Assembly (NCBI RefSeq): GCF_936931525.1
Contig: NZ_CAKZII010000132.1
Span: 1-33,144, forward strand
Direction: 5' to 3'
Source of the DNA: an uncultured Aurantimicrobium sp.
GTDB lineage: Bacteria; Actinomycetota; Actinomycetes; Actinomycetales; Microbacteriaceae
Length of the DNA: 33,144 bases
Numbering within the stretch: the first letter of the stretch is position 1; each line of letters begins with the position of its first letter. The translations under genes were made by a program, and so were the position numbers. Positions 19,829 through 33,140 of this stretch are shown piece after piece. The notes beneath the pieces were generated by a model. The model was not told the origin of the DNA and made no database searches. It saw only the letters and a program-made list of their open reading frames with translations.

Positions 19829-20980
19829 ATGCCTCAGGGATTCAATACGCGTTCAATTCACGCAGGACAAACCTCAGACCCCACCACGGGTGCTGTTGTC
19901 CCGCCCATCTACCTCTCTTCAACATTTGAGCAAGAGGTGGCAGGAACACCCCTGAATGGTTTCGAATACTCGCGTTGCGACAACCCGACACGTACAGCAC
20001 TGCAAGAGAACCTCACCTCTCTCGAAGGTGGATTGCTGTCTTATTCTTTCGCCAGTGGCATGGCTGCAGAAGATGCATTCTTCCGTGCTGTTTTGAAGCC
20101 CGGTGATCACATTGTTCTCGGAAACGATGCGTATGGTGGCTCCTACCGCGCTATTGAACAGGTCTATGGTCCATGGGGTGTAACGAACTCGTGCATCGAC
20201 TTCACTGATCTCACCTCTGTCGAGGAGATCATCAAGACCACCAAGCCTCGAGTGGTTCGAATTGAGACCCCCACCAACCCCATGATGACCATCGTGGACA
20301 TTGAAGGCGTTTCTAAGATTGCCCACAAGCATGGGGCATTAGTTCTCGTGGACAACACCTTTGCCACTCCAGCACTTCAGCGCCCTTTTGAGCTCGGTGC
20401 TGACGTTGTTTTGCACTCCACCACCAAATACCTCGGTGGCCACAGTGACGTGGTCGGCGGAGCGCTAGTACTCAAGGATGCCGCTCTCGCCGAGAAGGTA
20501 GCCCAAATACAGAACTGGCTGGGTGCGATTTCCTCACCATTCGATGCGTATCTGACCTTGCGTGGCATCAAGACACTCGGTGTCCGTATGGAACGTCACT
20601 CCAGCAATGCGATGGCTCTCGCTGAGCGTTTTGAAAACCACAAAGCTGTGGAACGTGTGCTCTACCCAGGGCTTGAATCGCACCCTGGTCACGACGTGGC
20701 TAAGCGTCAGATGTCGCTCTTTGGAGGAATGATGTCTATCCAGCTTGCTGGGGGAGAGAAGGCAGCAACTGCGCTGACTACCCGCACCAATTTGTTCATT
20801 CTTGCTCCTTCATTGGGTGGGGTTGAATCCCTCATTGAACACCCAGGACTCATGACTCACCACTCTGTCGAAGGCACGGCCCTTGAGGTGCCTTCGAACT
20901 TGGTGCGCATCAGTGTGGGCATCGAGGATATTGATGACCTCATCGAAGACCTTGCGCAAGCACTGGATTCTCTGCTGTAA
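19829..20980 (+). CDS. metB: Cystathionine gamma-synthase/lyase-family PLP enzyme
   Basis: 383-residue fold-type I PLP enzyme of the Cys/Met metabolism family. The PLP-binding lysine is Lys200 in [15 protein letters not shown]. The cofactor pocket includes FEYSR (45-49), SFASGMAA and the aspartate in LVDNTFATP. The C-terminus has [11 protein letters not shown] and VRISVGIED. The best guess is cystathionine gamma-synthase (O-acylhomoserine plus cysteine to cystathionine), but synthase, lyase and desulfhydrase members are hard to separate by eye. It follows the suf operon by 69 bases with its own likely promoter. Confidence 0.85.
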
Positions 20981-20987
20981 TCAGTAC

Positions 20988-21090
20988 TCGCGAATACGCG
21001 AAGACCTACAGGTTGATCTGTTCGTCGCACCCCTGCGACATTTCACCTGTATAAAGCGAAAGCCCCTGACGAATGTCAGGGGCTTTCGTG
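20988..21090 (+). ncRNA. Candidate structured small RNA or 3' UTR element
   Basis: The 122-base space between metB and bioY is unusually rich in perfect hairpins: TCGCG-AATA-CGCGA (20988-21001); an outer pair ACAGGT/ACCTGT (21008-21013 with 21045-21050) enclosing GTCGCA-CCCC-TGCGAC (21024-21039); then the terminator at 21057-21088. A possible promoter inside the metB end, TTGCGC (20952-20957) with 18 bases to TGTAAT (20976-20981), would start RNA at about 20988, exactly at the first hairpin, giving about 100 nt. It could equally be the processed 3' UTR of metB. I do not recognise an Rfam family. Confidence 0.3.
21057..21088 (+). terminator. Bidirectional terminator between metB and bioY
   Basis: CGAAAGCCCCTGAC (21057-21070) pairs perfectly over 14 bp with 21075-21088 around loop GAAT. 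The stem carries AAAG/CTTT at its base, so both RNA strands end in U-rich arms. It lies 14 bases past the bioY stop and serves both convergent genes. Its core AGCCCCTGA is shared with the rbpA terminator. Confidence 0.88.
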
Positions 21091-21102
21091 ATGTTCAGGG
21101 TG

Positions 21103-21705
21103 TTACTTGGTGCGGCTGGTGAGCTTCCACACGAGAGGAAGCAGTCCGCCAGCTGCCAGAGCCTTAATCAGGTCGCCTGGGATGAAGGGGTAGAGACCAG
21201 CCTGGAGAGTTGCGCTGAGGTCGTTGGGGTAACCCAGCTGACCAAGGGCAACAGAAAGCCAGGGGAGACCTACTGCGTAGATGACGGCAGTACCGGCAAG
21301 GAAAGCACCGATGGTGCCCAGAACCTTACGGTCCCACTGCTTCTGTGCGAGCCAGCCCACGAGAGCTGCTGCCAGGACGAAGCCGATCATGTAACCACCG
21401 GTGGGGCCAGCAAGCTTGGCCAGACCAGCGCCGCCTTCAGCAAAGACAGGAAGACCTGCAACACCGAGGCCTACATAAAGAAGCATGGAGAGTGCGCCAC
21501 GGAGAGAACCGAGGGTTGCACCGACGAACAGCACCGCGAAGGTCTGTCCCGTAATGGGCACAGGCCACATAGGGATAACCAGCTGAGCTGCACCTGCGGT
21601 CAGAACTGCACCAGCAGCAATGAGGGCAACATCGGTAGCGAGTGTGCGTGAACCGATGCGGTCAGCGAGCACGGGACGTGAAGCAGCAAGAGTGATGTTC
21701 GACAT
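21103..21705 (-). CDS. bioY: Biotin transporter substrate-binding subunit BioY
   Basis: 200-residue membrane S-component of the ECF biotin transporter. About six hydrophobic segments are visible, with the family motifs PVPITGQTFAVLFVGATLG and LAGPTGGYMIGF. It imports biotin with ECF ATPase and T units or alone. No bioM or bioN lies next to it, so it may use a shared ECF module encoded elsewhere. The ATG at 21705 is preceded by TAGTAT 6 bases upstream, indicating a leaderless message. An inverted repeat TGGC-TTA-GCCA (21737-21747) lies at its -35 position and could be an operator. Confidence 0.93.
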   Translation of the reverse strand: MSNITLAASRPVLADRIGSRTLATDVALIAAGAVLTAGAAQLVIPMWPVPITGQTFAVLFVGATLGSLRGALSMLLYVGLGVAGLPVFAEGGAGLAKLAGPTGGYMIGFVLAAALVGWLAQKQWDRKVLGTIGAFLAGTAVIYAVGLPWLSVALGQLGYPNDLSATLQAGLYPFIPGDLIKALAAGGLLPLVWKLTSRTK

Positions 21706-21747
21706 AGAAATATACTAAAGGAAGTAATGAGCCTTATGGCTTAGCCA
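21706..21747 (-). promoter_or_regulatory. Candidate leaderless bioY promoter with palindrome
   Basis: On the minus strand TAGTAT (21717-21712) stands 6 bases before the bioY ATG. The perfect inverted repeat TGGC-TTA-GCCA (21737-21747) covers the expected -35 position. It might bind a biotin regulator or another repressor. The sequence does not match a biotin operator I can recall with certainty. Confidence 0.4.
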
Positions 21748-21775
21748 AGATGTACCAAAGAATCGGGAAAAGCCT

Positions 21776-23374
21776 GTGCTCAACGTCCAAGACCTTGAGC
21801 TGCGCGTAGGCGCCCGAGTGCTCATGTCGGAAGTTTCCTTCCGCGTTTCCAACGGAGACAAGATTGGGTTGGTCGGCCGTAACGGTGCCGGCAAGACCAC
21901 GTTGACAAAGACACTCGCAGGCGATCTACAACCAGCTGGTGGCCTCATTGAGGTCGGCGGAGAGATTGGTTATCTCCCGCAGGATCCTCGCTCCGGTGAC
22001 CCTGAAGAGCTTGCCCGCACCCGTATTCTCAACGCTCGTGGCCTGGGTTCGCTCGTGCAGGGCATGTCTGAGAGCAGCATGCTCATGGGCGATGCTGACG
22101 AAAAAGTTGCTGCTGAAGCAATGCGCAAGTATGGCGAGCTCGCAGACCGATTCGATGCACTCGGTGGCTATGCTGCTGAGGCAGAAGCTGCCTCGATTGC
22201 TTCGAACCTTCAGTTACCTGATCGCATCCTCGATCAGCCACTCAAGACTCTTTCTGGTGGACAGCGACGCCGTATTGAATTGGCTCGTATTTTGTTCTCC
22301 GGAGCGGAAACAATGCTCCTCGATGAGCCCACCAACCACTTGGATGCCGACTCAGTTGTCTGGCTGCGTGAATTCCTCAAGGGCTACCAGGGCGGACTGA
22401 TCATCATCAGTCACGATGTCGAACTCGTCGGCGAAACAGTGAACCGAGTGTTCTATCTCGATGCCAACCGCCAGGTCATTGACGTCTACAACATGAACTG
22501 GAAGAACTACCAGAAGCAGCGTGAGCAGGACGAACAACGCCGTAAGCGTGAACGTGCCAACGCGGAGCAGAAGGCCTCCACGCTCCAGACTCAGGCCGCC
22601 AAGATGGGTGCCCGTGCATCCGGTGCTGTGGCAGCAAAGCAGATGGCTCGTCGTGCTGAGACTCTTCTTGCTGGACTAGATGAAGTTCGCATGAGCGACA
22701 AGGTGGCGAAGCTGCGCTTCCCAGATCCTGCCCCCTGTGGCAAGACGCCACTGATGGCGACAGACCTTTCTCGTTCATATGGATCCCTCGAGATCTTTAC
22801 CGCAGTTGATTTGGCTATTGACCGTGGTTCAAAGGTTGTCATTCTGGGATTCAACGGTGCGGGCAAGACAACCTTGCTGCGTATTCTCGCCGGCGTAGAC
22901 AAGCCCGACACCGGTGAGGTGATCGAAGGTCACGGCCTCAAGGTTGGCTACTACGCCCAGGAGCACGAAACTCTGCGTGTGCAGGACTCGGTCTTACAGA
23001 ACATGGTTTCTGCTGCAGCCCACATGACAGAAACAGAGTGCCGCAAGGTGCTGGGTTCCTTCCTGTTCTCTGGTGATGACGTTCTCAAGCCTGCGGGGGT
23101 TCTCTCTGGTGGGGAGAAGACACGATTGGCATTAGCAATGCTTGTGGTCTCCAGTGCGAACGTATTGCTCCTGGATGAGCCCACAAACAACTTGGACCCT
23201 GTTTCTCGTGAAGAAATCTTGGGTGCACTGGCGAGCTACAAAGGCTCCGTTGTTTTGGTCTCGCACGACCCAGGTGCTGTTGAAGCGCTCAACCCTGAGC
23301 GTGTGCTGATTCTTCCCGACGGTATTGAAGACCACTGGAACAAGGAATACGCCGACCTCATTGAGCTTGCCTAG
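21776..23374 (+). CDS. ABC-F family ATPase
   Basis: 532-residue soluble protein with two ABC domains and no membrane segment, the ABC-F arrangement. Domain 1 has GRNGAGKTT (34-42), LSGGQ (159-163) and LLDEPTNHLD (181-190). Domain 2 has GFNGAGKTT (358-366), LSGGE (443-447) and LLLDEPTNNLD (464-474). The linker (about 240-300) is charged and probably helical. ABC-F proteins act on ribosomes; some are housekeeping translation factors and some protect against antibiotics, and I cannot tell which. Likely a counterpart of the ABC-F encoded near suf in mycobacteria. The start is GTG with GGGAAAAG as a weak ribosome site. Confidence 0.9.
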   Translation: MLNVQDLELRVGARVLMSEVSFRVSNGDKIGLVGRNGAGKTTLTKTLAGDLQPAGGLIEVGGEIGYLPQDPRSGDPEELARTRILNARGLGSLVQGMSESSMLMGDADEKVAAEAMRKYGELADRFDALGGYAAEAEAASIASNLQLPDRILDQPLKTLSGGQRRRIELARILFSGAETMLLDEPTNHLDADSVVWLREFLKGYQGGLIIISHDVELVGETVNRVFYLDANRQVIDVYNMNWKNYQKQREQDEQRRKRERANAEQKASTLQTQAAKMGARASGAVAAKQMARRAETLLAGLDEVRMSDKVAKLRFPDPAPCGKTPLMATDLSRSYGSLEIFTAVDLAIDRGSKVVILGFNGAGKTTLLRILAGVDKPDTGEVIEGHGLKVGYYAQEHETLRVQDSVLQNMVSAAAHMTETECRKVLGSFLFSGDDVLKPAGVLSGGEKTRLALAMLVVSSANVLLLDEPTNNLDPVSREEILGALASYKGSVVLVSHDPGAVEALNPERVLILPDGIEDHWNKEYADLIELA

Positions 23375-23399: not shown

Positions 23400-24107
23400 A
23401 TGCTGATTGCAGAGCCGTTGGATGTGCCCGGATGGGTCAATGCCGTCGCTATTGGCGTCGGTAGTCTCCAGGGGGCGATCTACGCTTCTGGTTTCCGAGA
23501 TCGCAAGCTTGACCTTTTCGGCATTGCTGTCATTGGCATAGCTACCGGTCTGGGTGGTGGATTCCTTCGAGACATTTTGCTCAACCGCTTGCCCATTGCA
23601 CTGACTGAGAATTGGTACATCCTGGTTGCAGTTGGAGCTGCCCTGTTAGGTATGTTCCTGGCACGAGTAATCCGACGCATTGACTGGATGATTACGGCAC
23701 TAGATGCGTTAGCACTTGGTTTGTTTGGCGCCCTGGGTACGACAGCTGCCCTGGTTTCAGGTTTGCCTTTTGTTCCGGCTCTGTTCGTGGGTGTGATTAC
23801 AGCTGTGGGTGGCGGTTTCATTCGAGACCTCTTGTTGAACATGCCTATCTCTGTGATGCATGTGGGCTCGCTCTATGCAGTTGCGGCAGCTGCTGGTTCT
23901 ATTGCTTTATTGCTCTGCAACGAGGCAAACATTGGCTTGGAAATCAGCGTTCCGCTCAGTGTCGCAGTGACCACCATTCTTCGCCTGTTGGCGGTCCGCT
24001 TCGGTTGGTCGCTGCCTGAACAACGGATGTTGAAGTCCTTACGTAATCCAAAGTTGGTTCGCCCCGCAGATCTCACTGGCCCAATCGACGTTCAACGAGA
24101 CCTGTAA
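23400..24107 (+). CDS. TRIC/UPF0126-family membrane channel
   Basis: 235-residue membrane protein made of two repeated UPF0126 units. Each has a glycine-rich motif followed by Arg-Asp: [19 protein letters not shown] in the first and [16 protein letters not shown] in the second. About seven hydrophobic helices are visible. Prokaryotic TRIC-type proteins form trimeric monovalent cation channels; the physiological role in bacteria is uncertain. It starts 26 bases after the ABC-F gene and its stop overlaps recO as TAATG, so recO is translated from the same message. Confidence 0.87.
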
Positions 24108-24829
24108 TGCCCACCTACCGCGACGAGGGAGTGGTGCTGCGCACGCACAAACTCGGTGAAGCAGATCGCATTGTCACGCTTCTGACCAAAGGCCATGGCA
24201 AGGTTCGTGCCGTTGCCAAGGGTGTGCGCAGAACATCGTCCAAGTTCGGTGCTCGCTTAGAGCCCTTCATGGTCGCAGATATTCAGTTCTATGAAGGCCG
24301 TAGCTTGGACACCATTCAGCAGGCAGAAACGATTGCTTCCTATGGCGCTGACATCGTGGATGACTATCCACGATTTACTGCAGCAAGCGTGATGGTGGAA
24401 ACCGCTGACAAAGTCACAGAGCTGGAAGGCTCCCCGCAGCAGTACCTGCTGCTGGTGGGAGCCTTACGCTCCCTCTCTCGGCAGGAGCACCCCACCGAAC
24501 TCACTTTGGATTCTTATCTTCTGCGTGCGTTGAGCTTGGCAGGGTGGGCACCGACCTTCGATAGCTGTGCGCGCTGTGGTGAGATGGGTCCGCACGAGAG
24601 CTTTGTTGTTCAACTCGGTGGCATGGTCTGTGTGAAGTGTGCACCACCCGGTGCTCCGCACATCGTTCCTGAAGTTGTTGAGTTGTTAGATGCGCTCGTT
24701 CGTGGCGAGTGGGATGCGGCTGAGGCTCATACCCAGCAGAATTGGAGCAAGGCATCTGCCTTGGTCTCTGCCTATACACAGTGGCATTTGGAACGAACCC
24801 TTCGATCTTTGGAGCATGTAGCGAAATGA
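24107..24829 (+). CDS. recO: DNA repair protein RecO
   Basis: 240-residue RecO, which anneals single strands and helps load RecA in the RecFOR pathway. The N-terminal OB fold begins [21 protein letters not shown]-terminal zinc site has Cys154/Cys157 (CARC) and Cys175/Cys178 (CVKC). It overlaps the TRIC gene by one base and uppS by four (ATGA). RecO next to uppS is common in actinobacteria. It acts in the cytoplasm at gaps and breaks. Confidence 0.94.
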
Positions 24830-33067: not shown

Positions 33068-33140
33068 TCCCCGATAGCTCAATTGGCAGAGCAACGCACT
33101 GTTAATGCGTAGGTTCATGGTTCGAGTCCATGTCGGGGAG
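33068..33140 (+). tRNA. tRNA-Asn (anticodon GTT)
   Basis: A 73-base sequence folds as a full cloverleaf: acceptor arms TCCCCGA/TCGGGGA, D arm GCTC...GAGC, anticodon stem ACGCA/TGCGT with loop CTGTTAA, 5-base variable loop, T arm CATGG/CCATG with TTCGAGT, discriminator G. The anticodon GTT reads Asn codons. The 3' CCA is not encoded (CGAA follows), so it must be added by the nucleotidyltransferase. It sits 4 bases from the window edge. Confidence 0.97.

Follow-up and report, generated by a model that had tools for sequence, protein, structure and literature searches.

A near-invariant structured element behind metB in Aurantimicrobium, a candidate genus-specific small RNA

The spacer between the convergent genes metB and bioY in an uncultured Aurantimicrobium sp. 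holds a structured element that is nearly invariant in all eight Aurantimicrobium genomes sampled (the window's own included; the window is the whole stretch of DNA analysed, 33,144 nt). A conserved core (21005-21051, plus strand), made up of a helix P1, a single strand and a hairpin P2 with the loop CCCC, is followed by a terminator hairpin (21056-21089). The explanation we favor, with chances that seem to us about evenly balanced, is a genus-specific small regulatory RNA of some 90-110 nt, which would arise from the end of metB, or be cut from the 3′ end of its mRNA, and be ended by the terminator. We judge a small RNA or a processed 3′ end likelier than either a DNA site or an element acting only locally on the mRNA. 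The original prediction for this region, of a new small RNA, holds as far as a conserved structured element is concerned; the promoter and the first hairpin that it included find no support as parts of the conserved unit.

The spacer is 122 bases long. On one side is metB (19829-20980, plus strand; cystathionine gamma-synthase, NCBIfam NF005871.0, 596 bits against a cut-off of 513), and on the other bioY (21103-21705, minus strand; biotin transporter subunit, Pfam PF02632), so that both genes end towards the element, which is upstream of neither start. The perfect inverted repeats from which an array of three hairpins was predicted here are all in place, with an outer helix of 7 bp, one pair longer than claimed. 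The second and third repeats fold as a single unit (21005-21051): P1 (TACAGGT, 21007-21013, with ACCTGTA, 21045-21051) encloses P2, a 6-bp hairpin (GTCGCA, 21024-21029, with TGCGAC, 21034-21039) whose loop CCCC occupies 21030-21033, and the terminator follows. Inside P1 and 5′ of P2 is an unpaired stretch, TGTTC (21019-21023), that never varies. It is this unit that is conserved; the first hairpin of the proposed array, in the leader (TCGCG-AATA-CGCGA, 20988-21001, plus strand, with its arms at 20988-20992 and 20997-21001), falls outside it and, with the alignment read by eye, is complete only in G000 and G003. The terminator, claimed to be of 14 bp, has 14 pairs on the minus strand and 15 on the plus strand, where a G-U pair closes it (21056-21070 with 21075-21089); judging by the folds and the alignment of the eight genomes, it probably works from both sides. 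Despite its strong stem it is not listed by a T-run scan, which requires at least 5 T in 8 bases.

When the window is compared with the seven other genus genomes, the core keeps 38 of its 47 positions unchanged; the leader (20981-21004) keeps 8 of 24, and the stretch from 21052 to 21102 keeps 28 of 51. Every genome has one full copy of the core, found as a full-length match behind metB. The leader and the terminator loop vary among the eight genomes, and the third positions of metB differ by 17-61% between pairs of genus members. The core includes an invariant run of 22 bases (21019-21040), one of 12 such runs of at least 22 bases in the window. Apart from it, these comprise the tRNA, stretches inside long open frames and two at the start region of bioY and an ABC-F gene, 11 in all. 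Comparison of the spacer among relatives, proposed as a check on the original prediction, finds the core near-invariant throughout the genus sample, and its claim of structure beyond a plain terminator is borne out.

The unpaired TGTTC and CCCC match the helices in invariance. Twelve of the 13 core pairs never vary, the remaining one, in P1, is broken in G001, and none has changed on both sides; standard pairs fill 98.5% of the 65 pair cells over five distinct alignment rows. The core contains no covarying pair because it hardly varies, so that covariation speaks neither for nor against the helices. In the terminator stem, two pairs have changed on both sides among the eight genomes, and one C-G has become U-G on the plus strand. 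RNAalifold also proposes a pairing of the end of metB with the leader, in which one pair has both of its bases changed, a change common to three related genomes. Aurantimicrobium genomes are described as small and streamlined in the abstract of PMC4929513, and in such genomes a non-coding stretch that stays almost unchanged probably has a use.

Searches beyond the genus returned no second lineage with the element. A covariance model built from the core recovers the eight genus genomes with E values of at most 2e-14; under strict filters, with 15 candidates scored per genome, it finds no homologue in 390 other genomes of the family (best E 0.0064; weak matches at E ≤ 1 in 33 of them). With more candidates scored in 19 chosen genomes, only two genus controls stood out, and among 396 genomes of the order (a set overlapping that of the family) the only strong match was in G000, the next being again at E 0.0064. 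Five weak matches (one from the family search, four from that of the order) were checked and rejected as homologues, each having an open frame of more than 200 codons. The stem pattern occurs in 16 stretches of genome_contigs, three of them from Aurantimicrobium (MWH-Tana7, MWH-Mo2, and MWH-Bo1); the 13 others were likewise rejected, since their surroundings are unlike those of the element and the sole Microbacteriaceae record among them lies inside a long open frame. Behind metB in other genera, the hairpin was absent by pattern from the 28 loci read, drawn from 89 genomes with a metB match.

Several other origins were considered and set aside. As for a phage or mobile source, exact copies of the 16-base hairpin occur in 21 viral-contig stretches and of the 22-base stem pattern in five, but their surroundings do not resemble the element. 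Membership in a repeat family is contradicted by the single full-length match per genus genome, the remaining matches being short, weak or those of the terminator with itself. Against coding, no frame with a conserved start-to-stop reading runs through the core in the translations of five of the eight genomes. Among the papers searched, none joins Aurantimicrobium with a small RNA.

The position of the element is tied to metB. It had been described as lying between metB and bioY: the two are neighbours in all eight genomes, and in every one the element immediately follows metB on the strand of that gene, but in MWH-Tana7 (G003) an extra gene separates it from bioY. The order there is metB, element, terminator, a 2OG-Fe(II) oxygenase gene (locus L027, 396-1439) and bioY, which has a different hairpin at its own end (by eye). 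Since the element stays behind metB in this strain even though the oxygenase gene precedes bioY, it goes with metB. Elsewhere, G096 has a gene 63% identical to the MWH-Tana7 oxygenase gene after metB, and in G068 metB and bioY abut, without such a spacer.

A constant place behind metB on its own strand, kept in MWH-Tana7 as well, would also fit a cis-acting 3′-UTR element that remains part of the metB transcript and controls how stable it is or how it terminates, perhaps through a protein, with no separate RNA being made; so would a region without a recognisable sigma-70-type promoter. A cis role alone does not explain an invariant loop and single strand, and near relatives that have metB (G112, G068, and G096) do without the element. 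We consider this explanation possible but rather unlikely.

The original prediction proposed a promoter (TTGCGC, 18 bases, TGTAAT) that would start transcription at the first hairpin; a sigma-70-type scan of the region returns no site, although the end of metB, where the proposed promoter lies, is under extra constraint. The proposed TGTAAT lacks the usual A in second place, and reads TCTAAT in G003 and G005. In the last 12 testable metB codons (those whose first two bases are invariant in the eight genomes), the third base is constant in seven, against 34 of 266 gene-wide (p = 1.5e-4), and the gene's last codon window is its most constrained (7 of 15). Constraint of this kind is not unique to metB: in a control with 26 other hand-listed genes having testable codons, p was below 0.05 for eight, two of them with values below that of metB. 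All eight have a same-strand neighbour that overlaps them or starts within 26 bases (the neighbour of the gene at 24107-24829 being counted from an open-frame listing), whereas metB has none. The constrained block, comprising the last metB codons, the stop codon and TCA (20948-20983, plus strand), would suit either a promoter or an RNA's 5′ portion.

If there is a small RNA, it would be made either by initiation inside the end of metB or by processing of the metB mRNA at its 3′ end; the terminator would close it, for a total of roughly 90-110 nt. P1 would then present the invariant single strand and the C-loop hairpin as a surface for pairing with, or binding, a partner; that TGTTC and CCCC vary no more than the helices do suggests such a surface. 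We infer the strand, the discrete transcription, the regulatory action and the partner; in favor of the plus strand, one terminator pair has changed to G-U there. A search for complementary sites gave 99 matches, eight of which are the element's own copies; a reversed-pattern control gave 45. As 14 of the 16 loci inspected are antisense to a long open frame (of the other two, one is in sense orientation within a frame and the other has neither arrangement), we propose no partner. Antisense pairing would have only a small loop of four bases to work with, and this counts against reading the element as a small RNA.

A more specific and more tentative proposal, for which we would put the chances somewhat below even, is that the element may be a regulatory RNA not described before and confined to this genus of streamlined freshwater Actinobacteria, which originated in the spacer between metB and bioY and ties methionine synthesis to another function through its invariant C-loop hairpin and single strand. 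A small RNA here would represent a lineage-specific regulator linked to methionine synthesis. Gene replacement is stated to work in A. photophilum, of the same genus, in a section of PMC11577799, which makes the element directly testable provided that the A. photophilum strain carries it.

As a further alternative, the conserved unit might act as DNA, either as an inverted repeat bound by a protein or as a chromosome-organising or recombination site placed in a gene spacer. A single full, near-invariant copy per genome in an inter-gene spacer is what such a site might look like, and inverted repeats are possible protein targets. In G005 and G004, though, the internal loop that precedes the 3′ strand of P1 has changed bases and is one base shorter, with ACCTGTA intact; this shift in the spacing of the P1 arms fits better with a helix than with a DNA site of fixed spacing. 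Placement at the 3′ ends of both neighbours, upstream of neither start, also argues against a DNA site, as does the location of a dif-like sequence 159-174 kb away in the six genomes that have both on one contig, a distance that rules out a chromosome end site. We regard a DNA-level role as unlikely. The dif-like sequence itself has the same 20 bases in all eight genus genomes; seven contain a single copy, and the G000 assembly, which is fragmented, contains two.

The folds themselves are less distinctive than their conservation. A stretch of 151 nt including the element folds better than all of 200 shuffles (z -6.0), mostly through the contribution of the terminator. Taken by itself, the core has modest stability, being equalled or bettered by one of 300 random sequences for G000 and by up to 10 of 300 for G005. 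Perfect 6-bp hairpins with loops of 3-8 number 152 in the window, where 30 random first-order Markov sequences average 58. Perfect 7-bp stems that enclose such a hairpin give 20 register counts at six places in the window, the core and the terminator among them; the random sequences have a mean of 0.8 and a maximum of 6. With the core fold matched by few random sequences, and hairpins common, the anatomy by itself exceeds chance only moderately; the outstanding feature is conservation. That this is an ordinary terminator region, its extra hairpins formed by chance and kept through slow local evolution, would agree with the abundance of 6-bp hairpins and the lack of conservation of the first one, but is very improbable given a 22-base run that stays invariant beside diverging leader and loops and metB third positions up to 61% different, and given that the other long invariant runs coincide with tRNA, open frames or the bioY/ABC-F start.

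Comparison with known RNAs yields likenesses rather than a match. Over the whole window, the only Rfam family at its gathering score is tRNA (33068-33140), so that the Rfam check proposed earlier finds no family at cut-off within the element; at relaxed thresholds (E up to 10), the region 20930-21110 has 12 listed matches, none of them relevant. The top-scoring family in this region, MicC (RF00121), shares with it a hairpin followed by a GC-rich terminator, but at 24.2 bits against a cut-off of 90 the match is taken as chance.

The 6C RNA (RF01066) is an actinobacterial small RNA that forms two hairpins, each loop having a run of some six C. Like it, the element is actinobacterial, has one copy per genome and has an all-C hairpin loop; unlike it, the element has a single hairpin, with a loop of four C. 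Membership is rejected, the RF01066 model being absent from those 12 listed matches, in agreement with the original view that the C-rich loop recalls 6C-type RNAs without matching them.

The small RNA explanation has another parallel in small RNAs from mRNA 3′ ends, which the element resembles in its place between stop codon and terminator, on the strand of the gene, with constraint reaching into the coding end. A difference is that the well-known examples come mostly from bacteria with Hfq.

The only match of the RF01066 model at E ≤ 1 in each of the eight genus genomes is at a different place, with 31-45 bits against a cut-off of 47; a 6C control search gave a match in two of 14 named genomes, neither over the cut-off. 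The genus thus has a separate 6C-like RNA in all eight genomes, a C-loop small RNA that escapes curated cut-offs. Three of these 6C-like loci were rescanned: two are listed as CcsR1-like, below cut-off, and one is empty at E ≤ 0.001.

Beyond the element, the divergent spacer between bioY and the ABC-F gene (70 bases, within window positions 21691-21783) is also well conserved, with 50 of 70 positions invariant in the eight genomes and invariant runs of 26 and 24 bases that extend into the gene starts. A TATATT hexamer directly before the bioY ATG (by eye) suggests a leaderless mRNA. A second bioY, 91% identical to that of the window, is found on another contig in G000 (C171, L054) and in G006 (C2, L055).
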